NCBI GenBank assembly: GCA_949296825.1
Contig: CASFQZ010000075.1
Span: 1-44,512 of the forward strand
Direction of reading: 5' to 3'
From: an uncultured Eubacteriales bacterium
Lineage (GTDB): Bacteria > Bacillota > Clostridia > Oscillospirales > Acutalibacteraceae
Length of the DNA: 44,512 nucleotides
The position numbers and the translations under genes were made by a program. Of the stretch, positions 17,525 to 34,956 are shown piece by piece. Each line of letters begins with the position of its first letter. The stretch's first letter is position 1. The notes under the pieces are model-generated. The model was not told the DNA's origin. It saw nothing but the letters and a program-made list of their open reading frames with translations, and made no database searches.

Positions 17525-18967
17525 TTATGAAAAACGGAACAATACCGTCATTTTGCCGATCTGCTCTGTTTGGGAGGCAAATACGACTGCAGGATTTCCG
17601 GTGGCGGGGTCTTCGATTCCGATGCAAAGCGCCGCCGCATCCCGGGGAGACTGTCCGGAGGAAATCGGGACGGAAAAGGTATAGGTTTCTCCGGGAAGAA
17701 TCTCCGTTAATGCGATCTCTGTAGAAACGCGGGAAAGTACCTGATTTTGCGCATCGAGATAATATAAACAGACATCCCAATCCCAATACATGGGCGCGAC
17801 GCCGGTATTCTGCCATTGCAGCGACAGCACGCTGCCGCCGTTTTCCCTATCATATAGAGTGGCGACACTGATATATTGGCGATACCCCATGGTTTTCAGC
17901 ACCTCAGCGATGCCGTCCTCCAACCCCTTGCCGTTTTCCTCATCCAGCGCGTGAGGAAATTTCGGCCCAAGAAAAGTTGTGTGGGAGCGACGCAAAAGCG
18001 ACAGGGTCTGCTCCAAGTTATCGCCGAGCATTTCATCAAAGGTCAAACTGCTGTTGAATTCGCCGCCGACGGGCGCAACTTTCCACTGATCCGGCATGGC
18101 GGATAAGGCGTCTTCTTCTTCAGCCTGAGAATAATCTCCGCCGTTCTGGATCCAGTCCAACCAGTCCTCCGTTGCTTCCGGATTCCCGGCGGAATCATCA
18201 TAGAGCCCGAAGCCATGGACCTTTGCCGTCTGAAACGGGCGGCGCATCAGGATTTTTGCATTGGGGAACGCCGCCAGATAAGGTATGACATACTGTTCCC
18301 GGATTTCCGCCTGAGGCATACGCACAATTCCCGATTCGTAATTGACATGCCATTCGCCCCAGTGACCGAGACTTCCCAACTCCACAAAAGCAACAAAATC
18401 ATCGCCGGAAAAATGCGCACCAAGGGCAGCAATCACCTTTTCATGCGCCGCGATCAGCGTTTCATTGGAGTAGTCCGGCGAATAACCTTTATGGGTTTCA
18501 TCATAGGCATAGTGCGTGCCATCGCCGGTTTTTTCATAAAGCCACTCCGGGATATCCATATGTTCTTCTTCTGAGGGCTTATCACAGATAAACCGCAGAA
18601 CCGCGCGTTTCCCTTCTGCTTTCCATCGGGCAATCTGCTTCTGCTCGTCTACGGCGGAAAAATCATAAACCCCTTCCTCCGGTTCAATTTCCCGCCAGAG
18701 GACATCCACATAAACCAGAGTATTCCGCCCGACAGCTTCCGGGTAATCCGCTTCCGCAGCAAAGCCCATCAGCGGATTATACAACACCTCATCGCTTTCC
18801 GCAAAATGCTGCTGCGCAATGATTTCACCGGATTCTGTCGACGTTTCCGCCTGCGCGGAGGGCTCCGGCTCAGAAACTGCCGGCTGTCCGACGGTGTTAC
18901 AGCCGGACAGCAGCAGAAGCAGTGACAGCAACAGGCAAAAAGCACTGCGAAAACGGCGATTACGCAT
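17525..18967 (-). CDS. DUF4832 family lipoprotein, glycoside-hydrolase-like, last gene of the pel operon
   Basis: A 480-residue exported lipoprotein: basic N-terminus, hydrophobic core and lipobox LLSGC with Cys23, followed by a Ser/Glu/Thr-rich linker. The central region looks like a sugar-active TIM barrel (LVYVDVLWREIEPEEGVYDF, then AVLRFICDKP, then VELGSLGHWGEWH with conserved Glu). The C-terminal DUF4832 part is a beta domain (VLSLQWQNTGVAPMYWDW). Function is unknown in the family. In this operon the PelA-type protein lacks a hydrolase domain, so this protein might trim or bind the polymer; that is inference. The ATG at 18967 follows GGAG by six bases and overlaps the DUF4956 stop by eight bases. 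Confidence 0.8.
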   Translation of the reverse strand: MRNRRFRSAFCLLLSLLLLLSGCNTVGQPAVSEPEPSAQAETSTESGEIIAQQHFAESDEVLYNPLMGFAAEADYPEAVGRNTLVYVDVLWREIEPEEGVYDFSAVDEQKQIARWKAEGKRAVLRFICDKPSEEEHMDIPEWLYEKTGDGTHYAYDETHKGYSPDYSNETLIAAHEKVIAALGAHFSGDDFVAFVELGSLGHWGEWHVNYESGIVRMPQAEIREQYVIPYLAAFPNAKILMRRPFQTAKVHGFGLYDDSAGNPEATEDWLDWIQNGGDYSQAEEEDALSAMPDQWKVAPVGGEFNSSLTFDEMLGDNLEQTLSLLRRSHTTFLGPKFPHALDEENGKGLEDGIAEVLKTMGYRQYISVATLYDRENGGSVLSLQWQNTGVAPMYWDWDVCLYYLDAQNQVLSRVSTEIALTEILPGETYTFSVPISSGQSPRDAAALCIGIEDPATGNPAVVFASQTEQIGKMTVLFRFS

Positions 18968-19658
18968 GATACTCTCCATCGTACTGGATGGTTGTCACAT
19001 CCTCGACCCCTTCAATGGCGCGCAGCTTTTCCGCAAAAACCATACTCTGATTGCCGACATAAACTTCCAGCGCCAGCTCGGTCAAGTCGCCGCGGGAGGT
19101 TTTTGATTTGATGCGGTATTTTGTTGTACCCATGGCTCGTTTGATGGCGTCGGTTGTCACATCATCTTTATAATGTACAACGGCAATATAAAGCTTGCCC
19201 CTGGCGCTGCGGCTATTGAAAATCAAAAGCACAATCGTCATAATAACCGCCGCAATGACAGCCAGAAGATACATCTGCGCACCAGCGGTAATCCCGGTGG
19301 TAATTGACCAGAACAAATAAACCAGATCCAGCGGGTCTTTGATTGCAGTACGATAACGGACAATACTCAGGGCACCGACCATACCGAGGGAGATCACGAT
19401 ATTGGTACTAATTGCCAGCGTCACCATACAGGTCAGAACCGTCATGCCGACGATGGTAATGACAAACGCGCGATTATAAACCACGCCCTTAAAGAACTTA
19501 TGATACAACAGGGCGATAAACAGCCCAAACAATAGGGCTACCACCAGTGAAATGATCATCGGCAGGATGTTCTCGGATGTGGTCGTTCCGGTAAAGGACT
19601 CCAAAAAGGATTTTTTAATGACATCCTGCGTGCTCATACTCAAAATTAAATGTTCCAT
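18960..19658 (-). CDS. DUF4956 membrane protein
   Basis: A 232-residue protein with four or five membrane helices and a soluble C-terminal alpha/beta domain of about 80 residues. The family signature is clear: ISLGMVGALSIVRYRTAIKDP, then YLFWSITTGITAGA. Function is not established. DUF4956 genes often lie beside VTC-domain and CotH genes, as here, suggesting a membrane partner of the polyphosphate polymerase-like protein. The start is the ATG at 19658 with AAGGAGG six bases upstream; the longer in-frame reading from 19718 overlaps the preceding gene and lacks such a site. Confidence 0.85.
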   Translation of the reverse strand: MEHLILSMSTQDVIKKSFLESFTGTTTSENILPMIISLVVALLFGLFIALLYHKFFKGVVYNRAFVITIVGMTVLTCMVTLAISTNIVISLGMVGALSIVRYRTAIKDPLDLVYLFWSITTGITAGAQMYLLAVIAAVIMTIVLLIFNSRSARGKLYIAVVHYKDDVTTDAIKRAMGTTKYRIKSKTSRGDLTELALEVYVGNQSMVFAEKLRAIEGVEDVTTIQYDGEYHA

Positions 19659-20387: not shown

Positions 20388-22145
20388 TTATCCTCGGACA
20401 ATGGTACCGTCAGCGTTGACATAGAAACAGATGACGCCGTAATATGTCACCTCGTCCTCGCCTTCGTAGTCCGCCATAGCGGTCTGCGTATAGCCGCTTT
20501 CGTTCTGACAAGTCACGCGGAAGAAGTATTGACCGGCAGGAAGCGGATCGCAGAACGCCTGAGGCGTAATCAGATTTTCCTGCACGCTGATCGGATGATT
20601 GAATTGATAATTGTCGGCAAGTTCAAACTTATAGGTAACCGCTTCATCATCAAAATCATAGGACGCTTCCCAACCGAAACTCAGCTGTCCGTTCAGAATA
20701 AGCGGATCATCAACGTAGAAAGGCATCGGACTTTCCAGACTTGCCTTGTACAGCTCATAACGATAATCGATTTCATTGGGGATTTCGGCAATCACCGCGT
20801 TGAATTCTTCCTCTACCAAAGGAGAATAGTTATAATCGGGCATACCAAAAAGATAAGGACGCACCACGGCGGAATACGTATTGACCATCTCCGTCAGCCA
20901 TTCCTTGCTCAGAAGCTGGCGCAATTCCTGAATCTTGTCATCCAACATTTTACGATAGGTGTCGGATTTCAAAACCCGCTGATGCAGAATCACACCCCAA
21001 TAATTGGAAACACCGGTATTATAACGGTAGCCGGAGGGTTCGCCGTCAATGGCTGTCTCCTCGTAATACTCCCACGCACCATCATTATCCCAAGGGATGA
21101 AATACCATTTATCGCTGCTGCGCGGGCTGTAGAGATAAAAGTTCTGGCTGTTGGTATCGGTATTGCCGGTAATAATCTGGAATGCGAACCAGGTAAAATA
21201 GTTTTCCAAATCAAAATATTTCGGCAAAGTTTCTTCAATAGGCACCGCGTAATTATTGACCGCTGTCAACATTTCAATCAATTTAGAATGATCGTCATCC
21301 CCCTTGATCTCCAAAATCTCTTCAAAGGCAGACTGATCATAATCGGGATCCGTCGTCAATTTGATATTATCGTCATACAGCATAAACTCAAACATCGACG
21401 CTTTATACAGCTGCCCGTTTTCATCCAGACCATGGTTGCGCAGATAAGTCTTATTGATCTGCTCGGCGTGGGTATACAAGCCATAATCCTCAAACTGTCC
21501 GGAGCCGCCGGGGGTCAGATCACGCACGTAAAGATGCACAAACTGGGTGCGAACGCTAAAGGCGCCGGGAATGGTTTTCAGAATGTCATAGCTCATTTTA
21601 TTACGAAAACGAACGGAATCATAAACGTGCTTGTTCAGATTGATAATTCGCTGTTCGCGCCAAGTGCCTTTGTTGCGCTTAATATCAATCTTATAAGATT
21701 TCTGCGGCGAGCGGGTGCTGGTCTGACCGCGAATGGTCACCGTACAGTTGGGCGCTAAATCCGTAAAACCAAACTGTCCGCTGACCGGACCGTTTTCATC
21801 GCCGACCTGCAGCAAACCTTCCACCCCGAATTTTTCAAGATTGTTTTCCTTGTAATAATAGGTCGAATGCGCATTGACCTCCGTCCAGGTGTGATTGGTA
21901 TGATCCGAGGCATTGCCGGTCGAGACCGTTAAATACATTGTCACAACAGAATCCTCATCATCATCGGCGTAAATCACCTCGGAATCCCGTGTCAGCGAAT
22001 CCACCATCGCGTTCGGGGCGCTTTCGGTTTCTGCGGTCGTCGTTCCCTCCTCCTCCACCGGGTCGGAAACACCGCTTTTACCGCAGGAGGAAAAGAAACA
22101 GCAAAGCGCCAATAAAACAGCCAGCGAGCGAAGTGCTTTTTTCAT
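20388..22145 (-). CDS. CotH kinase family lipoprotein
   Basis: A 585-residue lipoprotein (lipobox FSSC, Cys21) with a Glu/Thr-rich linker and a CotH domain at about residues 110-440. Recognisable elements are VTIRGQTSTRSPQKSYKIDIK (cut short here by family habit), LNLNKHV-like region INLNKHVYDSVRFRNK, YGLYTHAEQINKTYL and FIPWDNDGAWEYY with the metal-binding Asp pair. CotH of B. subtilis is an atypical protein kinase of the spore coat. The C-terminal 120 residues look like a fibronectin-III-type sandwich. The ATG overlaps the pelG stop by one base (TAATG). Being outside the membrane, it may phosphorylate or attach a surface component; the substrate is unknown. Confidence 0.9.
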   Translation of the reverse strand: MKKALRSLAVLLALCCFFSSCGKSGVSDPVEEEGTTTAETESAPNAMVDSLTRDSEVIYADDDEDSVVTMYLTVSTGNASDHTNHTWTEVNAHSTYYYKENNLEKFGVEGLLQVGDENGPVSGQFGFTDLAPNCTVTIRGQTSTRSPQKSYKIDIKRNKGTWREQRIINLNKHVYDSVRFRNKMSYDILKTIPGAFSVRTQFVHLYVRDLTPGGSGQFEDYGLYTHAEQINKTYLRNHGLDENGQLYKASMFEFMLYDDNIKLTTDPDYDQSAFEEILEIKGDDDHSKLIEMLTAVNNYAVPIEETLPKYFDLENYFTWFAFQIITGNTDTNSQNFYLYSPRSSDKWYFIPWDNDGAWEYYEETAIDGEPSGYRYNTGVSNYWGVILHQRVLKSDTYRKMLDDKIQELRQLLSKEWLTEMVNTYSAVVRPYLFGMPDYNYSPLVEEEFNAVIAEIPNEIDYRYELYKASLESPMPFYVDDPLILNGQLSFGWEASYDFDDEAVTYKFELADNYQFNHPISVQENLITPQAFCDPLPAGQYFFRVTCQNESGYTQTAMADYEGEDEVTYYGVICFYVNADGTIVRG

Positions 22146-23665
22146 TACGGTTCCATCCTTTCTTTGCTATTGTCGTCATATTTATGCGCATAAGCATAGC
22201 GCCGTTTCTCCACGCGGGCGGCTCTTGCTTCCATGCGATCTGCCAAGCGGGTAAAAAAGCCTTTATTCAAACTGACAAACATCGGCTGCTTGCTTAGAAC
22301 GTTATATTTCAGTTTTTTCAGGTAATGACAGAGGCGGATCCAGGCAGCCAGGCAAAAAATAGCGCTGCCAATCAAAAAGCCGAAGCCATAAAAGGAATCC
22401 AAAAATAACGCCTGCAAAACGGACAACAGATTGGCAACGCCGGCAAAAATCGCAGCGCTGATCATCGCGCCTTTCAAATCGGAAAAATACTGCGAAATCA
22501 GCATAACGGCATTGCCAATGGCATAAAACGCGTACCCCACGCAAAGCGTACGAAAAATACGGAGCATTTCACTGGAAAAACCCAGGGGCAGCGCCGGAAG
22601 TATAATCGTTCCGAAAATGATGAAAATTAACGTCGAAAAGACCTGCTTAACCGCCAGATAACCGAGTTCCTCACTGAGAATGCGGATCATGGAGGTTTCC
22701 GCTTCGTTGATGTTCTCAATGGAGCCACCATCATTGAACAGGCTGAAATACTCTTTATACTGAGGATAAAATCGAGTTTCGACCGATGTGGTAAAATTGA
22801 CCGTCGTGATCAAAATGGAGAAGAAAGCGAAAATTGCCGGGACATCATAGGTCGGCGCACCGTAAAACAGACCTTCGACCTGCACCTTCAACGGACTGAA
22901 CCACCACATAATCACCAGATGGCCGAACAATCCGAGCGTCAGGAAAAAGCCGGTGAACCCAAGCTGCGGCGTATGATCAAACCATTCAAGGAAGCGAACG
23001 GACGTCCCAAACCCCTCGGGCAGATAGCGGTATAGGATTCCAAAATACCATACCATGACAATGGAATATCCAACGGTAATCGAGATAAGAACCGCCAGCA
23101 CCGGATCCATGTGGAACACCCACAAAAACAGCACCATCAGAAGAAGCGATACCAGCACCGCTACGGTAAATGCCAGCATAATGCTTCTGAAATCCTTCAG
23201 CATGGTCAAATAATTGATCTCTGTCCAGACGACGATCAGAACCATGAAAAGCAGAAAGCTTACGACCCGATATTTCAATTCTACACCGCAGAAGCACAAA
23301 AACGCACCATACAGGATGCCGCCGACAATCAGCATCATCCAGAGGCTGCCATAAAAGGAGGAAATCAGGCGGTCATATTTTTTTTCGTAAATCATATCCG
23401 CGCAGAAGCGCGTCGTCAACATGGAAAACAAAGAGGTTACAACAAGAGATGCCAGCAGATCGTGCGTCAGAATGGTAACGGCGACTTCCCGCAGATGACG
23501 GCTCGCCCCGTAAAAATCAATCATCAGCATGGAGCAAAGAAGCAATAGAAAGCCCAGGAGCATCGGGCCGGCGCAGACGGCGGTCGCGTAAGAGTAGGCG
23601 CGCACCGTAGCAACAAGACCCTTGCGGGAAAAAAGCTTTTTCAGTTCAAAGCCGATGCCTGCCAC
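22145..23665 (-). CDS. pelG: Pel exopolysaccharide transporter PelG
   Basis: A 506-residue polytopic membrane protein of the PelG family (MOP-flippase-like), which in Pseudomonas moves the Pel polymer across the inner membrane together with PelD and PelE. The diagnostic start MAGIGFELKKLF is present, followed by about twelve hydrophobic helices and the FNFTTSVE-like region VNFTTSVETRFYPQYKEYF. The C-terminus is basic and cytoplasmic. The start codon is GTG at 23665 with AGGAGG ten bases upstream, inside the last 25 bases of pelF. Confidence 0.94.
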   Translation of the reverse strand: MAGIGFELKKLFSRKGLVATVRAYSYATAVCAGPMLLGFLLLLCSMLMIDFYGASRHLREVAVTILTHDLLASLVVTSLFSMLTTRFCADMIYEKKYDRLISSFYGSLWMMLIVGGILYGAFLCFCGVELKYRVVSFLLFMVLIVVWTEINYLTMLKDFRSIMLAFTVAVLVSLLLMVLFLWVFHMDPVLAVLISITVGYSIVMVWYFGILYRYLPEGFGTSVRFLEWFDHTPQLGFTGFFLTLGLFGHLVIMWWFSPLKVQVEGLFYGAPTYDVPAIFAFFSILITTVNFTTSVETRFYPQYKEYFSLFNDGGSIENINEAETSMIRILSEELGYLAVKQVFSTLIFIIFGTIILPALPLGFSSEMLRIFRTLCVGYAFYAIGNAVMLISQYFSDLKGAMISAAIFAGVANLLSVLQALFLDSFYGFGFLIGSAIFCLAAWIRLCHYLKKLKYNVLSKQPMFVSLNKGFFTRLADRMEARAARVEKRRYAYAHKYDDNSKERMEP

Positions 23666-25068
23666 TTTTTAACGACCTCCTCATAGTTTTGATTGTAGTG
23701 ATCCACCATGTCTTTGTGTACATAATAGGCTCTGGTTCTCTTTTTTCCGACAGCCGCCATTTCCCTGCGCATATCCGGCCGGCGGCACATCAGCTCCATC
23801 GCATCCGCCAATGCATGAGAGTGCATCGGCGGGACCACCAGTCCGGCGACACCGAATTCGTCGTCCTTTTCCCCTTCCAAAAGGGATCGGCAACAGCCAA
23901 CATCCGTCGTTACACAGGGTCTTCCGGCGGCAAGGGATTCCAACACAGCCAGCGGCTGTCCCTCGGAAATACTGCTCAAGACCGTAAAATCGGTGTTGGC
24001 AAGGTATTGTAAAACATTCACGTTGCCCGGCATATCGATCCCATCCACATGAAGCTGATCAATCAGCGCGCGGCATTCATCGGCATACTCTTCATCGTCG
24101 GTATCGCCTAAAATATGCAAACGCGCGTTGGGCACCCTCTGCCGAAGAGCAAAAAAGGCATGAATCATGGTTTTAATATCCTTGATTGGATGGATACGAA
24201 CGACAGCCGTGATGTCAATAAAACCATCCGGTTTCTTTTCCGGAACAGCATTGAAGCGCTCGACCTGAATGCCGTTTTCAATGACGGTCTGTTTTTCCGG
24301 CGGGCAGCCGAGTTCGACCTGAATATCGGCATAACGCCGGAACAATGCGGTCACACTGGTGGCATGGTCATATGCGCACTGGGACAGCATATAGAACATA
24401 TTGATCCACTGACGGCGGAACGCGGGGACAATCCACCTCGCGCGAAGAATTTCTTCTTCCCGTTCCCGGGTATAAATACCGTGTTCGGTCACAACATAGG
24501 GCTTATGATATTTCCAGGAGCCAAGCGCTCCCAGGACACCGCCGTAGCCGGTGGTCGTGGAGTGATAAATGTCCGCTTCCGGCACCTCGCCGCTAATCAA
24601 ATAAAGCGTCGGCAAAAACATGGAGCGTATGGTATGGAAAAAATCAGCAAAAGAAACATGGGGATAATCGTTTTCGCATACATCCAAAAGGATTTTCAGA
24701 AATGTTTCACTCATCAGAAAAGACAGCGCGCCGACCTTATCCTGATTATACAGACGGAAGAGCTCATCCCAATCGGGATTCTGACAAAGCACCAGCTTTT
24801 TCAACTCCTCAATCTGCCGATCATTAAAAGGATACTGATCCTTCAAGCTTGCATGAAGACGAAGGGCGCTGTCCAAAAAAACTTCATGGACCTCCACCAC
24901 ATTTTTCGGAAGCTCATATTTATAATTGCCCTTATCCTCCTCTTTGGCGCCAATCAGCCATAACACATACTCGTGCTGCGGATTGGCAAGCATCAGACCA
25001 TGCACCCAGCTGGACACGCCGCCGCGAACATAGGGATAGCACCCTTCCAGGATCATACAAATTCGCAT
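23641..25068 (-). CDS. pelF: Pel polysaccharide glycosyltransferase PelF (GT4)
   Basis: A 475-residue cytosolic GT-B glycosyltransferase that polymerises the Pel backbone from UDP-sugar. Family marks are MILEGCYPYVRGGVSSWVH at the N-terminus, VVTEHGIYTRERE, VIENGIQVERF and the GT4 donor-site SISEGQPLAVLESLAAGRP. The length agrees with P. aeruginosa PelF. GGAGG is nine bases before the ATG, which follows the DUF2194 stop by one base. In Pseudomonas PelF activity needs PelD bound to cyclic-di-GMP, which the neighbouring gene can supply. Confidence 0.96.
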   Translation of the reverse strand: MRICMILEGCYPYVRGGVSSWVHGLMLANPQHEYVLWLIGAKEEDKGNYKYELPKNVVEVHEVFLDSALRLHASLKDQYPFNDRQIEELKKLVLCQNPDWDELFRLYNQDKVGALSFLMSETFLKILLDVCENDYPHVSFADFFHTIRSMFLPTLYLISGEVPEADIYHSTTTGYGGVLGALGSWKYHKPYVVTEHGIYTREREEEILRARWIVPAFRRQWINMFYMLSQCAYDHATSVTALFRRYADIQVELGCPPEKQTVIENGIQVERFNAVPEKKPDGFIDITAVVRIHPIKDIKTMIHAFFALRQRVPNARLHILGDTDDEEYADECRALIDQLHVDGIDMPGNVNVLQYLANTDFTVLSSISEGQPLAVLESLAAGRPCVTTDVGCCRSLLEGEKDDEFGVAGLVVPPMHSHALADAMELMCRRPDMRREMAAVGKKRTRAYYVHKDMVDHYNQNYEEVVKKWQASALN

Positions 25069-25069
25069 A

Positions 25070-26905
25070 TCATTCCGCCTCCAAAGGTTCCATGGTTACG
25101 CTGACATTGGCAGAAGTTGCGCGCAAAAGCCAGTGGTCGCCGCTAATGCGCTCAATCGTGCCGCCGGTGACTTCGACCGGTTTTTCTCCGTTGCAGCGAA
25201 CCATCAGATACGTTTCATCCCAAAAACCGCCCAAGCGAAGATCAAATCCGTTTTCTGTTTCGGTGCGCTTGATTGAACAGGCGTCGAATCTCTGCACCGC
25301 CGCTCCGCCGTCCGAGGCGGTTAAATTTCGGATATTCGGCGCAGAGGTATAAAGCCATTCCATATAATTGGAAAAATTTTCATACATCTGTCCCCAGCCC
25401 ATCGCCGCGCCGCGGTCGGTATCCAACGTATCATCCGGGTGCATGAAATGAGTATTAACATAGAACAGATTCAGCGCATTGATTGCAGCCCAATAATCGA
25501 ACTGATCCAGAATACAGCCGGAGATCACACGGGGATATTCAATAACCCCATCCTCACTCACTTCAAACTCCTGGCTGTACTCGATTTCGCCCTCCAAATA
25601 CAGACTGGAAAGAATCTTAATCTGCGGATACTTGGTCACCAGAAGCTCTCGTCCTTCTTCGGACAGGATATTGGATGGCGGAACATATACTTGCAGCTTG
25701 TTTTCAGGAAATAGATCCGTGGTGAAATCGATAACCTCATCCAACCCGTTACAGGCAGCCTCTTCAGACGCCCAGGTTTTATAATCCACTTTATCCTGGA
25801 AATCAAAGCCCGCAAAACAGAGGGGCTGGTGATTATACCCGTGAATACCAATCTCCCCGCCGTTGTCCAGGAGCATTGCGCCAAAATGATTGAAACGCTC
25901 TCGATCCGTCTGGCGCGTCATGACGCCGTCAATATTCTCATTGTAATCCTCTATGACAACGCCGGTATATTTTACGCCGTATGTATCACAGAGCTTCAGC
26001 ATATCGGGCCACCAGACATTGGAATAGAAGCTTGAAATATCCCGGTTGTAATATTGGCGGATATAGGAGCCGTCACCCATGGGAACCGGAGATGGAAAGT
26101 CATCCAGGAAAAAGGAGGAGGCATTGATTACGGGATAAACGCAGGTATCCTCCAGAAGCGCGTAGGCAGAACAGCTCAGCCCGCGGGAGGATTTTTCTGA
26201 AATGCCGTGGTTCATGATAACCAATCTGCCTTCGCCGTATTCGGCAGACCAGATCAGCGGGACCTCATCCTCATCGTCAGAAACCGCCCAGACCTTTGCC
26301 GTATCATTCAGCGAAACGCTCATTGTCGTAGCAATCGGCTCTTCCCAGTTGAAGACGAAGCCATCCTCGGAGCCAATCATAAAACCGGGAAGCAATTTAA
26401 TACCTGTGATATATGCAAAAGAAACGCCGCCGTCTTCCACGCCCAAAAGCGGCTGAAAATAGGAAAATACCGGACCGGCGGTGGGAGTACAGAAAAACAT
26501 CAAACGCCCGCCGTCCTGAGAAATCCAATCGGAAAGCTCCTGAATCGAATACGCCAGGACATCCAGATCCTGGAAACAGACCACCGCCGTCTGATAGGAT
26601 GAAAAATCCGGCGCCGGCTGTTCGGCGAGATCCACTGCATCATATCCGACGCGCATAATATCAAGCACATCCATCATATGACCGGTAAAAACATCATCGT
26701 TCTCCTGCCGGCTGTCGGAAAGAAGAAGGCAGGTTTTCGGGGTATTGGCGATCTCCTTCTTTTCTTCCATAACGGAATCAGGTACGAACTCCATCTGCGG
26801 CTCCGTTATTTCGTACTGCACGCCGACGTTATCCATAACAAGAAAAATTGTTAAAAAGCAAAGAGTCAAAAAGGTGATCAAAACTACTCTGAATTTTTTA
26901 TACAA
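25070..26905 (-). CDS. pelA: DUF2194 PelA-type polysaccharide deacetylase-like protein
   Basis: A 611-residue membrane-anchored extracellular protein: one N-terminal helix (about residues 5-26), a Rossmann-like domain (about 55-250), then a NodB-type deacetylase domain. Deacetylase motifs are FFLDDFPSP (Asp268-Asp269), IGIHGYNHQ (His355, His359), YVPPSN and NTHFMHPDD (His486, His489). A beta-sandwich closes the protein. It corresponds to the deacetylase half of PelA; no GH166 hydrolase half is seen. The TTG at 26905 is nine bases after a perfect AGGAGG and overlaps the PelE stop by eight bases; a TTG at 26929 is the alternative. Gene symbol given by position and domain, not by full-length similarity. 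Confidence 0.85.
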   Translation of the reverse strand: MYKKFRVVLITFLTLCFLTIFLVMDNVGVQYEITEPQMEFVPDSVMEEKKEIANTPKTCLLLSDSRQENDDVFTGHMMDVLDIMRVGYDAVDLAEQPAPDFSSYQTAVVCFQDLDVLAYSIQELSDWISQDGGRLMFFCTPTAGPVFSYFQPLLGVEDGGVSFAYITGIKLLPGFMIGSEDGFVFNWEEPIATTMSVSLNDTAKVWAVSDDEDEVPLIWSAEYGEGRLVIMNHGISEKSSRGLSCSAYALLEDTCVYPVINASSFFLDDFPSPVPMGDGSYIRQYYNRDISSFYSNVWWPDMLKLCDTYGVKYTGVVIEDYNENIDGVMTRQTDRERFNHFGAMLLDNGGEIGIHGYNHQPLCFAGFDFQDKVDYKTWASEEAACNGLDEVIDFTTDLFPENKLQVYVPPSNILSEEGRELLVTKYPQIKILSSLYLEGEIEYSQEFEVSEDGVIEYPRVISGCILDQFDYWAAINALNLFYVNTHFMHPDDTLDTDRGAAMGWGQMYENFSNYMEWLYTSAPNIRNLTASDGGAAVQRFDACSIKRTETENGFDLRLGGFWDETYLMVRCNGEKPVEVTGGTIERISGDHWLLRATSANVSVTMEPLEAE

Positions 26906-27836
26906 CCTCTTCCGCCTCCTCCAAATCAACCGCAGCGGAGGGATCCCAAAATCGAATCGTCGCTCTGCCTTCGGGCGTCAAATAGATTTTTCTGCGCATC
27001 ATCTCGGAAATGATCCGTTTGATTCCGTCACCGTTGTTCATGCTGCGGTAAATTTTCAGCTTCGCGAACCAGGCATCTTCCTCCGAAGGCCACTTTTCAA
27101 TCATTTGATTCGCGTATTCTTCTGCGCGGGTAAAGGAGCCAAGGGACAGGCAATTATCAACCGCTTCCGAGTAACAAGACATATCATCCGGTTTCTTTTT
27201 GATTTTATCATCCAGAAGCTCTGAATACCGGCGCGTGTAAACAAACAAGATGTTTTCGTCAATCAATCCGCTGGCAATATACTGCTGCAATGTGTGCAGG
27301 TAAAAATCCAGCTTTTCCTGTGAATCCGGATCGTCGTTATAATCCTTTTCCGCTTTCTGCAAAGAAAGTTCATATTCGCGCTCGACCTCCATCATGGCAG
27401 TGGACGCGTAATGCGACACCTCAATGTCATCATCCAGGCGCGCCTTCTGCAAGAGAGAGAGATATTCGTTAGGATTACGGTGAAGAATTTCCAGCATCAG
27501 CTTCCGGCGTGTTTCCGCATCATTGATTGATATGGCTTCTTCCAGGGGTATGATTGTCTCGTTATCCGCCGTATCCTCCTCAACATGGGAAAGCCGAAGA
27601 TCTTCCAACCCAAGATGCAACTCTTCCAGACTGATCGGCTTGCTGCCGGCTTTGCGCAGACGAGACAAGATATCCGCCACGATCGCAGCTAAAACACCGG
27701 CAACCGGTACCAGCACAACAATCGGAAAAAGCTGGGTAGAAAACTTCAGCACGCGAGAACGGATGCCAAGATAAATCAGCACGCAAAGCAAAATATGAAG
27801 GATGACATAAACAATCAAAACAATACGCAATGTCAT
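26898..27836 (-). CDS. pelE: PelE-like membrane TPR protein
   Basis: A 312-residue protein with two N-terminal membrane helices (about residues 4-26 and 36-58) and a long soluble helical region that reads as tetratricopeptide-like repeats (LDFYLHTLQQYIASG, YSEAVDNCLSLGSFTRAEEY, DAWFAKLKIYRSMNN). This matches PelE, which forms an inner-membrane complex with PelD and PelG. Primary sequence is poorly conserved in the family, so the name rests on topology and position between PelD and PelA. The ATG at 27836 comes one base after the PelD stop with GGTGAT upstream; a GTG at 27845 is possible. Confidence 0.78.
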   Translation of the reverse strand: MTLRIVLIVYVILHILLCVLIYLGIRSRVLKFSTQLFPIVVLVPVAGVLAAIVADILSRLRKAGSKPISLEELHLGLEDLRLSHVEEDTADNETIIPLEEAISINDAETRRKLMLEILHRNPNEYLSLLQKARLDDDIEVSHYASTAMMEVEREYELSLQKAEKDYNDDPDSQEKLDFYLHTLQQYIASGLIDENILFVYTRRYSELLDDKIKKKPDDMSCYSEAVDNCLSLGSFTRAEEYANQMIEKWPSEEDAWFAKLKIYRSMNNGDGIKRIISEMMRRKIYLTPEGRATIRFWDPSAAVDLEEAEEVV

Positions 27837-27837
27837 A

Positions 27838-29937
27838 TCAATCACCGGAATTCATTTCATGGAAGGCAAAGCCTGAATTTTTAATGCGGCTCAATACCAC
27901 ATGGATATTCTTTTGGTTGGACTGAGAAAGGCAGAGATACAGCGCACCGTCACTTCCCTCGCCCAGAAGATCGGTCGAGCGAACCAGAGAATGAATTTTT
28001 TCAGCAACGGGAATGCGCTGCTTTTCTCCGACATCAAAGCGCAGCAGGACATACTCTGCCGTACCGTTTTTTGACATTTCTTCTTTGACCTGGATGATCT
28101 TGCTAAAATAGGAAGCACGAATGATATGGCTGCCCGGCAAATACATTTCTTCTTCCGTTTTTTCGGTATACTCAATGGCGCGCACCAGAGAAATACGGAT
28201 CAGACCGCAGACAACTTTGATCATATTTTCATAATAGACCGCCATTTGCTCATAACTGCACTGGCGGATCAAAATAAGCGCAAGTATCTTTCCGTCGCGA
28301 TACAGCGGAACGGCGTACTCCGGGTATCCTTCCAGTCGCTCGCGATTTACCCATACTTCGCCTTCGCGGAACTGATCGACCATCTGCGAAAAGGAGGCAA
28401 GATTTAGAGATTTATCGGTCGTTGCAGCAATTTCGCGGGAGCAGACAATCAGTCTGCCGAAGAGCATGGAATCATCGCAGCGATACAGGCAGACCGAATG
28501 ATTGTCAAGAATGCCCTCCAACGCATTGAGCGCCTCGCTGAAAACCTGATCAATCACATTGCTGTCCAGATTTCTTGCCACATCAAATAATCTCCCAAAG
28601 GAATCTCGATAGGACATAATCTGATTTTTATACTGCTCCTTGCTTTGTACAGCGCTGACATAGAACTCATTCAGCAAAATATATTTATCCTCCAGCACAG
28701 CTTTTTCGCCAGCAAGGAACTCATAATCGCTCGCGCGACGGTCTTTAATATAGCCGGTAACGGCGCCAACCAGGAAATAAAAGATATATGGCAGCCAGGT
28801 TGAAGCATCATAAACTGTCGCCGCCCAGTTATTTTCATTCATAATCGATGCGACCAAAAGGGAAATACTGGCAAGTCCTGCCGCGCCGAGACCAGTTTTC
28901 AACCCGTGGATTGTACCAAGCAGGACAATGTATAAAAGTCGAAAATCAATATAGGAAAACAAAATGGTGGTAGAAGTGATCCGATTCAGCAGCTCCATCA
29001 AAATGAAGCCGATAATCAGCTCAATCAGCTTGATCACAAAATTATGCCTTTTGAAAAAAGCACGAAGCCGTACCCACCGCTCCCCACGCTGTTTTTGCGG
29101 CGTACGGTCCTGGGCAAAAATCACTTCCGGCAATTCATCACGGAGATAAAGGATCGGAACCCAGTCATACTCCTCTTTCGCCGCATTGTTGCCCTGATCG
29201 CTGACGCCTTCCTCCGCGGGAGCACCATAGGAAATGCGAGCCGTCGGGTACTTGGTTTTCAATAAATCGCCCAGCTCCCGAAAAGAGAGATAGGAAGCGG
29301 CCGTCAAAGAAAAGTAAGTCTGCTCCGTCGACCAGTTTTCCACCATGCGCAGCAAAAGCTCAGACAGGTCCTTTTGCGAAAGGTAACCAAGCGTCTGATT
29401 TTCTCTGCCGCGGAAACGAATGGCAGCGGTATTTTTTGCCTGCGCAATCGCATCGCCGACAACAGAAGCGGACTCTCCGTATCCGAAAAGGACAGGCGTT
29501 TCCACGGTTAAGATGGAAATATTTTTCTTTTCGTGATAGTAATCAATCAAAAGATCCGAGGCCTCATATAGAACAGAAAAAGAGTCACTCTGTTTACCGC
29601 CCGAAGCCGCCCGTATCGACGGTCGGATATAAATTACCTTGCCGCACTCGTGAACGCGGCAAAGCTCCAGACAGCGCTCCAAGTCGGAATATTCGCCATA
29701 ATACTCTTCACCGCTGAAAACCGGCTGCGCGAAGTAAATGACGACATGAAAATGATACGAGTGGAAAATCCGTTCAAAATCCCTGTCGCTGGGCGACGCC
29801 TTAAACCGATTGGATTGCTTTCCCAGTTGTTCGGGACAAATATCTTCTGACGCAAAAATAACCTTATGACGCTTCGACAGCTGCTCACTGATTGCCTCTG
29901 TCGCCGTTGCCAGTCTGCCCGTGATTAGGATATTCAC
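27838..29937 (-). CDS. pelD: PelD cyclic-di-GMP receptor with fused degenerate epimerase (SDR) domain
   Basis: A 699-residue fusion. Residues about 1-270 form an extended-SDR fold beginning VNILITGRLATATEAI, but the TGxxGxxG glycines are partly lost and the YxxxK motif reads Y124-EAS-D128, so catalysis is unlikely. About 290-400 hold four membrane helices, then a short coiled coil, a GAF domain (about 450-600) and a C-terminal degenerate GGDEF. There RSTD (653-656) sits exactly five residues before SDGAL, which replaces GGDEF. RxxD is the inhibitory-site motif with which Pseudomonas PelD binds cyclic-di-GMP. The domain ends only 33 residues later, shorter than usual. GTG at 29937 overlaps the HD-GYP stop (GTGA), with AGGGGGAG upstream. 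Confidence 0.88.
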   Translation of the reverse strand: MNILITGRLATATEAISEQLSKRHKVIFASEDICPEQLGKQSNRFKASPSDRDFERIFHSYHFHVVIYFAQPVFSGEEYYGEYSDLERCLELCRVHECGKVIYIRPSIRAASGGKQSDSFSVLYEASDLLIDYYHEKKNISILTVETPVLFGYGESASVVGDAIAQAKNTAAIRFRGRENQTLGYLSQKDLSELLLRMVENWSTEQTYFSLTAASYLSFRELGDLLKTKYPTARISYGAPAEEGVSDQGNNAAKEEYDWVPILYLRDELPEVIFAQDRTPQKQRGERWVRLRAFFKRHNFVIKLIELIIGFILMELLNRITSTTILFSYIDFRLLYIVLLGTIHGLKTGLGAAGLASISLLVASIMNENNWAATVYDASTWLPYIFYFLVGAVTGYIKDRRASDYEFLAGEKAVLEDKYILLNEFYVSAVQSKEQYKNQIMSYRDSFGRLFDVARNLDSNVIDQVFSEALNALEGILDNHSVCLYRCDDSMLFGRLIVCSREIAATTDKSLNLASFSQMVDQFREGEVWVNRERLEGYPEYAVPLYRDGKILALILIRQCSYEQMAVYYENMIKVVCGLIRISLVRAIEYTEKTEEEMYLPGSHIIRASYFSKIIQVKEEMSKNGTAEYVLLRFDVGEKQRIPVAEKIHSLVRSTDLLGEGSDGALYLCLSQSNQKNIHVVLSRIKNSGFAFHEMNSGD

Positions 29938-31805
29938 TGCGGCACTCCCCCTTTGTTGGTATTGGCTGCATCCTTCTTCGCTGCCGGATGGTAGCTGAGA
30001 TATTGCATATAAAGCCGTTCTTTTTCTTTTTTCAAAGCAGCGACGATTTCCTTGTCGTAATATGTACCGCCGCGCTCGCAAATGTATTGATACGCATCAT
30101 CAAAGCTCCAGGTTCTTTTATAGCCGCGATTGGACGTCAGCGCATCCAGGACATCGGCAACGGCGACGATTTTAGCAGGCATGGAAATCTGTTCGCCGCG
30201 AATGCCGAGATAACCGGAGCCGTCCACATGCTCATGGTGCTCTCGCGCGATGATGGCGGCAAGGTCGAAAAACTCGGAACCAGTACCGGAAAGAATTCGT
30301 TCCCCGTATCTATGGTGACGGCGAATCTCATCAAATTCCGCTTCCGTCAATGGACCGGTCTTATGCAGAATCGCATAGGGTACCGACAATTTTCCAATAT
30401 CGTGCAGCAACGCTGCACCGGCGATTTCATCCGCTCGATCCGGCTGAAGCCCAATTCCCAGAGACAAAATACGCGTATAGGCGGCGACATGGAGCATATG
30501 ATCATCCGGTGCGCTGCATTTTTTCTGGACAAGCTCCCGCAGGCGATCGTCCTGCATTTGCATGAGCAGCCGATCATCCATAATCGGGTTGCCCTGCGCA
30601 GGCGCTGCCACAGGTGCCGGTAAAGACGCATCACTTTTTTTCTCACGCGGCGCGCGAACCGACCGCAGCAGCCCGGAAAAAGTAACTGCGCTGCCGGTCA
30701 GTAGCGCGGGAATATACAAAAGCAGACCTCCGTCGGCAAAAAGCCGAAAATCCACATCCAGCCAGAAAAACAGGAGCGGAACAAAACAGGCAAGAGAGAC
30801 CGCAGCATCCAGCGGTGAACTCGTCAACTCCTTCTCTTTGAAGAGCATTGCCAATGCCAAAAAAATCGCCAAATGGAAAATCACGCCGAATTTCAAAAGC
30901 ACCGCAAAAAACACCTCATATGGCCAGAACAGAATTGCCGCTATATAAATAATATTTAAAGCGCTGACGATTTCGAGCTTGGTGTTCCAGCCGCAAATTC
31001 CGATTGCTGTCGATAACGGCAGCATAAAAATCGCCAAAAAATTCAGCGCGCTGACAAGCGCAAACATTCCGTCCGGCGCAAGTTCAGAATGCGACGAGCA
31101 ATGATATTGAATAAACAAAGAAATTGCCAAAAGCAAAAACGCCAACGTCGGCAAAACGAGACGGAGCTTTATTTCACGGTGCTCCCTGCGATTCAGCACA
31201 ACGGAAAGAATCGAGACCAGCGCCAAGACCAAAAACAGCACGCCAAAGACCAGCAGTTGAACAAAAAAACCTCGGAAGCCGGACATCGGCGCAGCGCTGT
31301 CGGTCAGCGATGCGGAAAAAGAAAACGCATTCGGGCTGTAAAGAAGCACGGTCACCGTTTTTTCCGTATCGGTTTGAGGAACAAAGACAGTAATCACCGC
31401 CGAAGAAGAAAAAGAATCGTTTTGATGATCTGTCAGCGAATCATATGCCGTCTCTCCACCAATCGAAACGCTCAACAGCGCATTGGATGTTTTGATATGA
31501 AGATTCCCGCTTTCCTCCCCTGAAAAAGAGCGGCGAAGCAGAACATAGACATCCCCGCTGCTAATCCTTAAGTATTCGCCCCACCGGAGTTCCTGCCATT
31601 CTTCGTTTTTCCCGTCGCCAATTCCTGCAAGCCGATCGGAGCTGACATATTGCCAGTCGGCGATGGCGTACCGGCTGTCCGGACGAGCGGCAAAACCGCA
31701 TAAAAGAAAAAGAGCCGTTGCCGCAACCAAATAAAGGCATACGAAACCATAAAAACGGCTCTTCGGAAACCGGGAGACAGAAAAAACTTGCTTTTCCGTT
31801 CCCAT
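29934..31805 (-). CDS. Membrane HD-GYP cyclic-di-GMP phosphodiesterase
   Basis: A 623-residue sensor enzyme. One helix (about 17-38), an extracytoplasmic beta-rich domain (about 45-180), seven or so helices (185-390), a linker, then an HD-GYP domain (about 430-600). Metal ligands are present: LLHDIGKLSVP, RRHHRYGERIL, REHHEHVDGSGY and VADVLDALTS. The GYP triplet reads GYL, a mild variant. HD-GYP enzymes hydrolyse cyclic-di-GMP to GMP or pGpG. The ATG has GGGAG eight bases upstream and starts 34 bases after the coiled-coil gene. It is inside the riboswitch-controlled operon, so it could act as negative feedback. Its topology matches the diguanylate cyclase at 33244. Confidence 0.9.
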   Translation of the reverse strand: MGTEKQVFSVSRFPKSRFYGFVCLYLVAATALFLLCGFAARPDSRYAIADWQYVSSDRLAGIGDGKNEEWQELRWGEYLRISSGDVYVLLRRSFSGEESGNLHIKTSNALLSVSIGGETAYDSLTDHQNDSFSSSAVITVFVPQTDTEKTVTVLLYSPNAFSFSASLTDSAAPMSGFRGFFVQLLVFGVLFLVLALVSILSVVLNRREHREIKLRLVLPTLAFLLLAISLFIQYHCSSHSELAPDGMFALVSALNFLAIFMLPLSTAIGICGWNTKLEIVSALNIIYIAAILFWPYEVFFAVLLKFGVIFHLAIFLALAMLFKEKELTSSPLDAAVSLACFVPLLFFWLDVDFRLFADGGLLLYIPALLTGSAVTFSGLLRSVRAPREKKSDASLPAPVAAPAQGNPIMDDRLLMQMQDDRLRELVQKKCSAPDDHMLHVAAYTRILSLGIGLQPDRADEIAGAALLHDIGKLSVPYAILHKTGPLTEAEFDEIRRHHRYGERILSGTGSEFFDLAAIIAREHHEHVDGSGYLGIRGEQISMPAKIVAVADVLDALTSNRGYKRTWSFDDAYQYICERGGTYYDKEIVAALKKEKERLYMQYLSYHPAAKKDAANTNKGGVPQ

Positions 31806-31839: not shown

Positions 31840-32751
31840 TCAGCCGTTCACGATATTCTTCGGATTAACGCTGATGGAAATGCCGATCTCGCCGGGCACG
31901 TCACGCAGCGCTTCCCGCGGTTTCTCCACGGCAGGAGCCTGCGCCGGCTCCTTCGACGCATCCTCTTTGGCGGCAGGCTCGACAACCGTCTCTTTTTTGG
32001 TGTCTGCCCGCTTTTTTAAAGCGCGGAAAATTGCGCGCTGGGGCTCCATCTCCTCGGCGGGCTCTTCCGGCTGCTCGTCGACAGGCTGGACGTCGCTTTC
32101 CTCCGGTTGATCCAGCTCACGCAGCGCCTCGTCAATATCCGCCTTTACGCTTTCTTCCAGCGCATCCATCTGGTCAAAATACTTTGCAAATTTTTCCGCA
32201 CTGCCATTCAGATCGGAATACTGCTGCAAAATCGCGTCGGCAGCAGCCAAAAAGCTTTCGCGGCTCTCGTCGCACGCACGGGAAACTTCGGCGGTAACCG
32301 CGTCGATCTTCTGCCGGTAAGAAGCCCATTGCGACAAAAATTCGCCGACAAAACGAGCAAGCTTTTCTTTGGTATCCTGTTTTGCGTCCGCCATGTCCGC
32401 ATACGCAGCGCGGCAGATCTGGCTGACTTTGGTCAGATCGTCTGCCTCGGCAGCGGCGGCGTTCTTCTGCGCGTCCAGTTCTTTTGCCATATTGCGGATG
32501 GTCGTCTTCATCTTTTCATTTTCAATTTTAAGAGAAGCGATTTCTTCCTGCGCTGCCGCAAGCTCTTCGTCATTTTTTGGCGCATCCGGCAAGTCAGCCA
32601 GCGCTTCAAATTCACGATCGGTGTTTTTTAGCGATTCCAATTCCGCCGTCAACTGCTTGACCTGCTTCTCGAGTTTGGCGTTCATCTCCTCGAGATATTC
32701 CATGTTTTCATCCACTTCACGGATATTGTAGCCAAAAAATGCCTTTTTCAT
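31840..32751 (-). CDS. DivIVA-like coiled-coil protein, first gene of the pel operon
   Basis: A 303-residue soluble protein. The N-terminus FFGYNIREVDENMEYL resembles the DivIVA/GpsB pattern (F-x-GY-x3-EVD), followed by coiled coil (residues about 20-110) and a second helical region (115-205). The C-terminal part is acidic and Pro/Glu-rich, with a conserved-looking end EIGISISVNPKNIVNG. I do not recognise a closer family. DivIVA-type proteins mark poles or septa; a role in positioning the Pel machinery is inference. GGAG lies seven bases before the ATG. It is the first cistron after the riboswitch terminator. Confidence 0.7.
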   Translation of the reverse strand: MKKAFFGYNIREVDENMEYLEEMNAKLEKQVKQLTAELESLKNTDREFEALADLPDAPKNDEELAAAQEEIASLKIENEKMKTTIRNMAKELDAQKNAAAAEADDLTKVSQICRAAYADMADAKQDTKEKLARFVGEFLSQWASYRQKIDAVTAEVSRACDESRESFLAAADAILQQYSDLNGSAEKFAKYFDQMDALEESVKADIDEALRELDQPEESDVQPVDEQPEEPAEEMEPQRAIFRALKKRADTKKETVVEPAAKEDASKEPAQAPAVEKPREALRDVPGEIGISISVNPKNIVNG

Positions 32752-32785
32752 AACGTTGCTCCGCCTTTCATAATTTACTTAAAGC

Positions 32786-32830
32786 AAATAAAAAAGGCTG
32801 CAAAAACTGAATCTATCAATCTTTGCAGCC
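32786..32830 (-). terminator. Riboswitch-controlled intrinsic terminator in the pel leader
   Basis: Minus strand stem GGCTGCAAA (32830-32822) with TTTGCAGCC (32804-32796), 17-base loop, then six T (TTTTTTATTT). The 5' arm is the 3' closing strand of the riboswitch aptamer, so the two structures exclude each other. Confidence 0.88.
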
Positions 32831-32905
32831 GGACAGACATGGTTAAAAACTTTAGTCTCCAAAGCTTTGCGTCGCCGTCTTTCGACGGTTTTGCCCATAT
32901 ATTCG
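32825..32905 (-). promoter_or_regulatory. Cyclic-di-GMP-I (GEMM) riboswitch
   Basis: The leader of the pel operon carries the conserved GEMM core on the minus strand: GGGCAAAACC, a CCGTC-GAAA-GACGG hairpin with GNRA tetraloop, the invariant CGACGCAAAGC, ACTAAAG, then AACCATG and CCGGCTGC closing the aptamer. It lies about 60 bases after the predicted transcription start and directly before an intrinsic terminator that shares its last strand. This layout fits an ON switch: cyclic-di-GMP stabilises the aptamer, blocks the terminator and lets RNA polymerase enter the pel genes. The direction of control is inferred from the overlap. Confidence 0.92.
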
Positions 32906-32940
32906 GATGTAACAGCGAATATCGATGAAAAATAAGCGAT

Positions 32941-32960
32941 TACACTGTATTGCGAGTGTA
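32941..32960. repeat. Inverted repeat at the pel operon start
   Basis: TACACT and AGTGTA form perfect 6-base arms eight bases apart, immediately after the -10 box. Could be a repressor site or a 5' RNA hairpin. Confidence 0.4.
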
Positions 32961-32988
32961 TTCTATCACACCCAAGCAATCATGTCAA
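32960..32988 (-). promoter_or_regulatory. Promoter of the pel operon
   Basis: Minus strand TTGACA (32988-32983), 17-base spacer, TAGAAT (32965-32960). Predicted start near 32953, upstream of the riboswitch. Confidence 0.82.
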
Positions 32989-33132: not shown

Positions 33133-33161
33133 TTGACAATCCATGATGGGAACTTTATAAT
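33133..33161 (+). promoter_or_regulatory. Consensus promoter of the diguanylate cyclase-sfsA unit
   Basis: TTGACA (33133-33138), 17-base spacer, TATAAT (33156-33161): a full sigma-A consensus. About 75 bases of leader follow, without a riboswitch I can recognise. Confidence 0.85.
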
Positions 33162-33243: not shown

Positions 33244-34956
33244 TTGTCAACAACGGACCATTCCACGACTGCCGGAAAAGCAGTCCGATTTCTGAAAAAT
33301 AACGCCGCTTTTCTTTTTACCGTCATTACGGTTCTTTGCATGCTTGTGGTATGCATTTATATCAACCATTCTTTTACGCTGGAAAATTCACCCTTTCTCT
33401 TCGCCGCCAATAAAAATGCGCGGGAATTGGCGGCTGCCGACATGGAAGTCGAAAGAAACGGCGAGTGGCACAGTGCGGTTTCTCTTGCTTATGGCAACGG
33501 ATTGCATGTAAACGGAGAGACCCGTCTGCGCTGTAAAATCCCTGAACAACTTGACGAGCAAAACGCGCTTTCCTTTGCCAATGTCGGAACGGCGGTAACC
33601 GTCTATCTGGACGGAATGGAAGTCTGCCGCTCAGCAGTTTCCACCCATCTGCCCTTTGGCAGATATTTTGGCAGCGAATGGCTTGTTGTTGAGCTGACAC
33701 CGAACGACGCCGGGAAATATCTGTATTTTGAAATGAGTGAGGGCAGCAACGGTATTCTGCGCGATTTTTTACTATCCAGACAGGCGGCGCTTGTCCAGCA
33801 GGCATGGACCTCCTCCCTGCCGAGGCTGCTGATGCTGGTTGTTTTTCTACTATTCTTTATCGTCGAAGGCTTTTATCTTCTGGCTTCTCGGCTTCGCGCA
33901 CCAAAAAAACATTTTTATCTCAGCGGATTTCTTTTTATTTTATCTCTTTGGCTGTTTACGGAATCCCATCTTGCCAATTTTCTGTTTGAAAACCGCGCCG
34001 TTGTATATTACCTGTCCGCGTTTTTCTTTTCTCTCCTGCCTTTGTCCCTCTGCCTTTTCTGTCAGGAGTCTTTCCCATGGGCAGGAAAATGGTTCGGCGG
34101 TTTTTGTCTTTTATTTTCCGTATTCTTCTTTACAGCAGTGGGCTTTGTTTTATCCGATACGGCGGAGCTGAGCACCTTCCTGCCCCTTGTTTTCGGCGAA
34201 TTGCTGCTGACACTCGTCATCGGCTTGATTTTATGCATCAAACATCGAGAAGAGGACGGTTTTCACGCGTCGGGAATACTGTTTGTCATTGCTATTTTCA
34301 CCGCCGTCTCCGGGTTCTTTGCCTATTATTCTCTTTGGTTTGAACGAAGCGTATATGGAAATATCGTGCTGATCGGCGCCTGGGGCATCTGGTGCGTTGG
34401 CATGTTTTCTCGAGCAGCCAACGCGCGCAAAGCGATGACAGACGCACATTTACTGGGATATTATAAAAAAATGGCATATACCGATTATCTGACCGGGCTT
34501 CACAACAAAGCCGCCTATGACCGGGATCTGCCGCTGATCGACAAGAAAAGCCCGGCGCTAGCCGTGATTATGTTGGATTCCAATAATCTAAAAGAGATCA
34601 ATGACTGCCACGGGCATGATTGCGGCGACAAGCTGCTGCGCTCCACCGCATACTGCCTGGCAACCGCCTTCGGCGAACACAATCCCGTCTATCGTGTCGG
34701 CGGCGATGAATTTATCGTTTTAATACCGGCGAATGCAGAGGAAAATATTCAAGAGCTGCTTACGAAAAAACTGAATAAATTCAATGAGCTGGTCGTCCGC
34801 AACAACGAAAACAGCGAATGGAAAATCAGCGTCGCTTATGGCTATGCCCTGCGTCAGGCCGGTGAACCCATCACTGCGGCAGCAATGGCAAAAAATGCGG
34901 AATCCATTATGTATCGCAATAAACGAGAGGGCAAACAGCAAAAATCCCACACATAA
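33244..34956 (+). CDS. Membrane diguanylate cyclase (GGDEF)
   Basis: A 570-residue sensor enzyme that should condense two GTP to cyclic-di-GMP. One helix (about 20-42), an extracytoplasmic beta domain (about 45-190), seven or eight helices (195-395), then a GGDEF domain with YTDYLTGLHNKAAYDRD, MLDSNNLKEIND and an intact RVGGDEF (486-490). The product-inhibition RxxD motif is absent (GEHN at that place), so feedback inhibition is unlikely. The first possible start is TTG at 33244, after an in-frame TGA, with AAAGGA ten bases upstream. Divergent from the pel operon and 13 bases before sfsA. The topology parallels the HD-GYP protein. Confidence 0.93.
   Translation: MSTTDHSTTAGKAVRFLKNNAAFLFTVITVLCMLVVCIYINHSFTLENSPFLFAANKNARELAAADMEVERNGEWHSAVSLAYGNGLHVNGETRLRCKIPEQLDEQNALSFANVGTAVTVYLDGMEVCRSAVSTHLPFGRYFGSEWLVVELTPNDAGKYLYFEMSEGSNGILRDFLLSRQAALVQQAWTSSLPRLLMLVVFLLFFIVEGFYLLASRLRAPKKHFYLSGFLFILSLWLFTESHLANFLFENRAVVYYLSAFFFSLLPLSLCLFCQESFPWAGKWFGGFCLLFSVFFFTAVGFVLSDTAELSTFLPLVFGELLLTLVIGLILCIKHREEDGFHASGILFVIAIFTAVSGFFAYYSLWFERSVYGNIVLIGAWGIWCVGMFSRAANARKAMTDAHLLGYYKKMAYTDYLTGLHNKAAYDRDLPLIDKKSPALAVIMLDSNNLKEINDCHGHDCGDKLLRSTAYCLATAFGEHNPVYRVGGDEFIVLIPANAEENIQELLTKKLNKFNELVVRNNENSEWKISVAYGYALRQAGEPITAAAMAKNAESIMYRNKREGKQQKSHT

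Follow-up and report, generated by a model that had tools for sequence, protein, structure and literature searches.

The window analysed here is positions 1 to 44,512 of contig CASFQZ010000075.1 (assembly GCA_949296825.1) from an uncultured Eubacteriales bacterium of the family Acutalibacteraceae, and its minus strand very probably carries a transcriptional ON riboswitch of the cyclic-di-GMP-I (c-di-GMP-I, or GEMM-I) class that controls an 11-gene operon for the biofilm polysaccharide Pel, within what looks like a one-locus c-di-GMP circuit. The aptamer, the terminator, their overlap, their conservation, the gene content and the sole matches in the genome were computed, and from the sequence we infer the ligand, the direction of switching, the enzyme activities and the feedback.

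An aptamer and a terminator share a strand ahead of the operon

As a sequence-only reading of this DNA had reported, the minus-strand leader carries all of the GEMM core motifs, namely GGGCAAAACC, a GAAA-capped hairpin, CGACGCAAAGC, ACTAAAG and CCGGCTGC. That reading had named an Infernal search with RF01051 as its check, and scanning the 44.5-kb window against Rfam with cmscan gave a significant match at 32905..32821 of the minus strand (63.6 bits, E 2.9e-10, positions 1-87 of the 87 in the model), which exceeds the gathering score of 35 by 28.6 bits. At a lax threshold, the three other Rfam matches listed for 32400-33600 were all far under their own cut-offs. The leader comprises the following elements:

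32960..32988, minus strand: operon promoter, TTGACA-17-TAGAAT with TG ahead of the -10 element; 11/12 consensus matches, second best of 5 regional sites
32821..32905, minus strand: c-di-GMP-I (GEMM-I) aptamer; position 20 is G at 32895, the A47 equivalent is 32868 and the C92 equivalent is 32825
32825..32830, minus strand: GGCUGC strand common to the aptamer (closing helix and C92) and the terminator 5' arm
32790..32830, minus strand: intrinsic terminator; 15-pair stem at 32830..32796, loop of 5, T6 at 32795..32790

Transcription probably starts near 32953. Aptamer positions are numbered after the 4YAZ sequence together with a list of ligand contacts. In this numbering, the pocket bases G20, A47 and C92 are all retained. 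In the aptamer alignment, GGCU (32830..32827) forms the closing helix and the C at 32825 sits at the place of C92, a ligand-contacting base according to the contact list. We conclude that this RNA is an ordinary member of the known c-di-GMP-I class.

The claim that the last core strand doubles as the 5' arm of a terminator was borne out, with the six bases GGCUGC at 32830..32825 lying in both. The terminator stem is the longest among 34 terminator-like sites in a scan of 17300-33300, where the runner-up has a 13-pair stem followed by an interrupted run of T. By ViennaRNA, the terminator folds at -22.1 kcal/mol, against -5.2 kcal/mol for the remnant lacking GGCUGC. In the leader fragment of the window, the terminator state is 14.4 kcal/mol better than the aptamer state (5.8 to 21.3 across the 13 pel loci described below), and all 13 leaders favour the terminator fold when no ligand is present, which suggests that the default is OFF and that the ligand must therefore act co-transcriptionally, ahead of synthesis of the terminator 3' arm. 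Because the terminator 5' arm is the last strand of the aptamer in 13/13 loci, a bound aptamer and a full terminator are mutually exclusive. The same topology is described for pilM of Geobacter metallireducens, a GEMM-Ib transcription ON switch in which strand A serves either the aptamer or the terminator (PMC9262584). This pilM-type topology and the terminator default in 13/13 leaders support the earlier proposal that c-di-GMP would turn the operon on at transcription. In the absence of ligand, GGCUGC at the aptamer end would pair with the downstream GCAGCC and polymerase would halt at U6; with c-di-GMP bound, GGCU would be sequestered in the closing helix, C92 would contact the ligand, the base of the terminator would stay open, and the 11-gene operon would be read.

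The opposite direction, in which c-di-GMP promotes termination by way of an antiterminator built partly from terminator sequence, is the one known from Cd1 of Clostridioides difficile. Cd1 likewise joins a class I aptamer to a transcription terminator, and the seven functional class I switches of that species are all OFF switches, which speaks for such a design here, although the review that reports them cautions against extrapolating (PMC6366702). However, the aptamer and terminator of Cd1 can coexist (PMC9262584), whereas here they compete for one strand, the terminator fold already wins without ligand, and an OFF switch would silence the Pel genes exactly when the c-di-GMP receptor PelD has its activator. 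On the shared strand in 13/13 loci and the terminator default without ligand, we rejected an OFF switch and regard it as very unlikely.

Both folds are maintained across 13 pel loci

We identified 13 distinct pel loci in which an aptamer precedes the pel genes and lies on their strand (the window, L031, L038, L039, L040, L041, L043, L052, L065, L066, L067, L068 and L069), of which L043 is from Candidatus Avimonas narfia (Clostridia). Their leaders form alignment A2, which displays the L038 terminator and was compared with 500 shuffles. In the lower terminator stem, 104/104 cells are paired, 5 of the 8 pairs changed on both sides and 10 further pair types occur; none of the 500 shuffles was as high on any of five measures, and slid alignments reached at most 55.9% paired. 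For the aptamer, 84.6% of 234 cells are paired, with covariation of 0.494 compared with 0.223 in shuffles (0/500 as high), and helix 2 is 92.3% paired with both-sided changes at 6/6 pairs. Taken together, these results indicate that the aptamer fold and the terminator fold are both maintained in sequence, as a switch requires. An overlap of the two at one locus alone is weak evidence; because it is conserved with covariation in 13 loci, we consider it more than chance. Nor is the overlap design confined to pel, since other RF01051 loci of the family show it as well; among 29 RF01051 loci it occurs in L024, a pel locus at the same place as L031, and in six others (L015, L016, L020 with a weak T tail, L023, L026 and L030), a count that is a lower bound because the crude script used misoriented some loci (at least L011, L021 and L025).

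Several observations weigh against a working ON switch. The GAAA tetraloop is present in the window, and its receptor is ACUAAAG/CCAUG as compared with the consensus CUAAg/uAuG. For the window prefix, ViennaRNA scores the canonical aptamer fold at -16.5 versus -20.3 for the free fold, and across the leader prefixes the canonical fold is the minimum in 2/13 and not in 11/13, with energy models that ignore tertiary contacts and ligand and so may miss the aptamer fold. When the downstream 75 bases were shuffled 2000 times with dinucleotides preserved, a 6-pair terminator that includes the aptamer strand arose in 145 shuffles of the window leader, and the same test gave 21 to 155 (1 to 8%) for each of the 13 loci, which is not rare. 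Aptamer pairs with two-sided change number 8, compared with 6.7 in shuffles, and 114/500 shuffles reach 8; helix 3 is merely 76.9% paired, with both-sided changes at 2/10 pairs. The non-canonical receptor would also fit a relic, that is, an unresponsive aptamer with a terminator that attenuates the operon constitutively, and C. difficile does have c-di-GMP riboswitches that are non-functional (PMC6366702). The excess over the gathering cut-off, the retained G20, A47 and C92, and the both-sided changes at every pair of helix 2 over 13 loci nevertheless argue for a responsive aptamer, which leaves a relic highly improbable.

Position 20 points to c-di-GMP as the ligand

Geobacter switches for 3',3'-cyclic GMP-AMP (3',3'-cGAMP; GEMM-Ib) have the same fold and were initially annotated as c-di-GMP switches (PMC9262584), and 1 of the 13 pel leaders, that of L069, has A at position 20, so that cGAMP might be the ligand here as well. 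Position 20 is G in the other 12 leaders, the window included (32895), and G at this position favours c-di-GMP over cGAMP (PMC10333796). Moreover, PelD of the operon has c-di-GMP-site residues and the neighbouring gene encodes a GGDEF protein. With the A20 hallmark absent and G at 32895, cGAMP was rejected as the ligand of the window aptamer, for which it is extremely unlikely.

The pel-head aptamer of L069 (1624-1710, plus strand) has A at position 20 as cGAMP switches do, and it is possible that this base marks a natural specificity shift inside one operon type. A at position 20 also occurs in the RF01051 loci L006, L007, L008 and L014. Relatives in the same family carry tandem c-di-GMP-I aptamers, in genomes G061 (contigs C19, C45 and C56) and G021 (C22, C28 and C29), with starts ~130 to 250 bases apart.

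The operon encodes a Pel machine and a predicted phosphodiesterase

The genes downstream of the leader, and the gene divergent from them, are:

31840..32751, minus strand: first gene, 303-residue coiled-coil protein with an N-terminal MKK..GYN..EVDE motif
29934..31805, minus strand: HD-GYP-type phosphodiesterase (predicted), 623 residues, 8 membrane-like segments; HD_5 94.4 bits against a cut-off of 27.2
27838..29937, minus strand: pelD; SDR domain, 3 membrane-like segments, GAF domain and a degenerate GGDEF region with RSTD and a second R
26898..27845, minus strand: pelE-like TPR protein; TPR_14 below cut-off, and synteny
25070..26929, minus strand: pelA deacetylase-like, DUF2194/DUF2334
23641..25068, minus strand: pelF, glycosyltransferase of family GT4; NF038011, 346.9 bits, cut-off 100
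22145..23665, minus strand: pelG exporter; PF16933, 404.6 bits, cut-off 29
20388..22145, minus strand: cotH-like kinase; PF08757
19670..20422, minus strand: VTC-domain (polyphosphate polymerase-like) protein; PF09359
18960..19718, minus strand: DUF4956 protein
17525..18979, minus strand: DUF4832 protein, the last gene of the operon
33133..33161, plus strand: promoter-like site of the cyclase gene, TTGACA-17-TATAAT; 12/12 consensus
33244..34956, plus strand: divergent diguanylate cyclase (predicted), 7 membrane-like segments, intact GGDEF

All ten intergenic gaps of the operon are 34 bases or fewer, and nine of them are 1 base or overlapping. With pelD, pelE, the pelA deacetylase, pelF and pelG together, the gene content identifies this as a clostridial-type pel operon of Gram-positive bacteria, in keeping with the placement of the riboswitch in the sequence-only reading; its first two genes, however, encode the coiled-coil protein and the HD-GYP-type phosphodiesterase and are not pel genes. 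That reading was silent on these two genes and on the divergent GGDEF cyclase.

Counterparts of the first gene are present in 10 of the 13 loci, of which the window and 6 were assigned by BLAST and 3 by the N-terminal motif and place (12-21% identity). The N-terminal GYN..EVDE motif is reminiscent of DivIVA/GpsB; weak Pfam matches to DivIVA occur in 5/10 family members (best E 0.0031), amid many coiled-coil matches. A profile of the family searched against the PDB returned solely coiled-coil and other helical proteins among the 60 matches listed. The product could serve to position the Pel machinery within the cell.

A complete HD-GYP motif consists of HD and HHExxxGxGYP. The protein of the second gene retains HDIGK and HHEHVDGSGYL, in which the final P is L, and its activity is a prediction. 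The proposed GTG start of pelD overlaps the stop of this gene, and a longer open reading frame runs from 30081. In five loci (L052:1865-4792, L069:1760-4546, L045, L035 and L073), an HD-GYP-type domain and an SDR-PelD occupy a single frame of 929 to 976 residues, a predicted fusion of a phosphodiesterase to the c-di-GMP receptor of its own pathway; the HHE motif of the L069 fusion was unmatched by the search pattern used.

The earlier proposal of added control through PelD gains support from the c-di-GMP-site residues R, D and second R, which are kept in 12/12 sequences of alignment A3, a set that includes the window and excludes the fused PelD of L052 and L069. Sequence searches of the PDB gave no match for PelD as a single protein and none with a C-terminal profile, and a full-length profile returned SDR epimerases and related enzymes. 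The predicted structure of the C-terminal half (mean predicted local distance difference test score 85.8) matches GAF domains, with PelD of Pseudomonas aeruginosa having the highest identity among the 50 matches listed, a list that hardly probes the GGDEF part (the reference fold, 4dmz, is GAF plus GGDEF).

The sole GGDEF, HD_5 and RF01051 matches of the genome lie at this locus

The divergent cyclase lacks the RxxD inhibition site, having GEHN at that place, and the congeneric locus L038 has the same divergent cyclase gene, likewise without the site. In the organism's own genome assembly (2.10 Mb, 109 contigs, 92.4% complete), this cyclase is the sole match to PF00990 (GGDEF), the HD-GYP-type gene of the operon is the sole match to PF13487 (HD_5), and the pel leader is the sole match to RF01051; PF00563 (EAL) has no match in the assembly. 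Because the sole matches lie here, production of the signal, its sensing at two points, its use and its destruction all appear to take place in one locus, at least within the known part of the genome. Against this, further c-di-GMP genes may be missing from a 92.4%-complete assembly, in which the search covered GGDEF, HD_5, EAL and RF01051 but not PilZ or c-di-GMP-II.

The switch is present in a minority of pel genomes

We searched for PelG (PF16933) in draws from the family, the order and the class and for PelF in named genomes, and then for RF01051 in the genomes found. PelG scored over cut-off in 5/150 genomes of the family, 2 of which carry the switch 8-10 kb upstream in the same orientation; in 12/394 of the order, of which 5 have the switch and 1 (G347) is cut by a contig end; and in 15/391 of the class, own genome included, of which 3/15 have it (own and 2 more), with contig ends unchecked in this last draw. 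Matches of PelG under cut-off were dropped in 6, 11 and 4 genomes, respectively. Most of the sampled pel genomes are therefore without the switch (8/30 with it when the three draws are pooled and the own genome is counted once), and in the genus 5/7 genomes are without PelG, both of which weigh against the proposed switch. The two PelG genomes of the genus are the own genome and G154, which, judged by identical coordinates, is the genome of L038 and has the switch too. The PelF search of named genomes yielded 27 loci, one of them archaeal; in 6 of the 27 the switch precedes the pel genes (L038, L039, L040, L041, L043 and L052, of which L040 overlaps the order draw), and several of the rest are truncated at a contig end. 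RF01051 has no match anywhere in pel genomes G023, G036, G500, G377, G495 and G436, eight pel loci without a nearby RF01051 match have no other c-di-GMP riboswitch over gathering score, and the leader has no match among plasmid records.

In Bacillales, c-di-GMP-I matches near pel operons (L056:1524-1614, plus strand; L059:5884-5968, L060:5828-5918 and L061:5885-5969, all minus strand) are each followed by a gene for a GH114-type hydrolase. The genera with this arrangement are Alkalicoccus, Exiguobacterium and Pseudalkalibacillus, and the hydrolase, which was Pfam-scanned in L056, L059 and L060 (the protein start of L061 is nearly identical to that of L059), is perhaps the PelA hydrolase. In genome G012, a c-di-GMP-I match (L033:6468-6554, plus strand) heads a dCache-HAMP-PAS-GGDEF gene convergent on a pel operon.

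Discussion

The ligand class, the fold and the ON-by-terminator design of this riboswitch are already known. The window resembles pilM in its GEMM-I fold, its ON topology and the aptamer strand that doubles as a terminator arm; unlike pilM, which responds to cGAMP and concerns pili, it has a G20 that predicts c-di-GMP and its target is a pel operon with a predicted phosphodiesterase. Bc2 of Bacillus thuringiensis is a class I c-di-GMP switch in a Gram-positive bacterium that is ON by read-through (PMC6366702); it is likened to the window by description alone, and unlike the window its target is a cap gene for a collagen adhesion protein.

On the side of the operon, the window matches the clostridial type of Gram-positive pelDEA(DA)FG operon described by Whitfield et al. 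(2020; PMC7112168), with SDR-PelD, PelE, PelA deacetylase, PelF and PelG followed by CotH, the polyphosphate polymerase, DUF4956 and DUF4832. In that work, the c-di-GMP enzymes CdgF and CdgE act on Pel in Bacillus cereus, and bifidobacterial pel loci contain a gene for a dual cyclase/phosphodiesterase (PMC7112168). Its main text makes no use of the word riboswitch, and its excerpts contain no mention of the coiled-coil and HD-GYP genes found at the head of the operon in the window. A literature search, with most subscription journals outside its reach, found no described c-di-GMP riboswitch on a pel operon, nor one controlling a phosphodiesterase together with PelD.

Under the proposed ON switch, the cyclase would make the signal, the RNA would open the operon, PelD would start synthesis and the phosphodiesterase would end the pulse. 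The operon would yield a Pel-type polysaccharide machine, in which PelD again depends on c-di-GMP, together with an HD-GYP-type phosphodiesterase to remove the messenger. As Pel machinery and phosphodiesterase build up together, c-di-GMP would fall, PelD would shut and the terminator would re-close, which looks like delayed negative feedback in a one-locus c-di-GMP circuit. A further-reaching proposal, which we advance tentatively and with somewhat more doubt than belief, is that the whole c-di-GMP system of this lineage is one locus, in which the riboswitch supplies feedback in place of the missing inhibition site and so forms a self-limiting generator of Pel pulses; its parts, held with the same reserve, would be one cyclase lacking a product-inhibition site, one phosphodiesterase under riboswitch control, and RNA and PelD receptors in series.

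The circuit, and not the RNA, is the part of interest, and its double gate and built-in breakdown may be a new arrangement. Within ~17.5 kb, one messenger seems to gate one pathway twice, through the RNA at transcription and through PelD at the enzyme, and to induce its own breakdown. If true, this would add a transcriptional layer to the regulation of Gram-positive Pel and would offer a minimal circuit from nature for measuring feedback and double gating directly.
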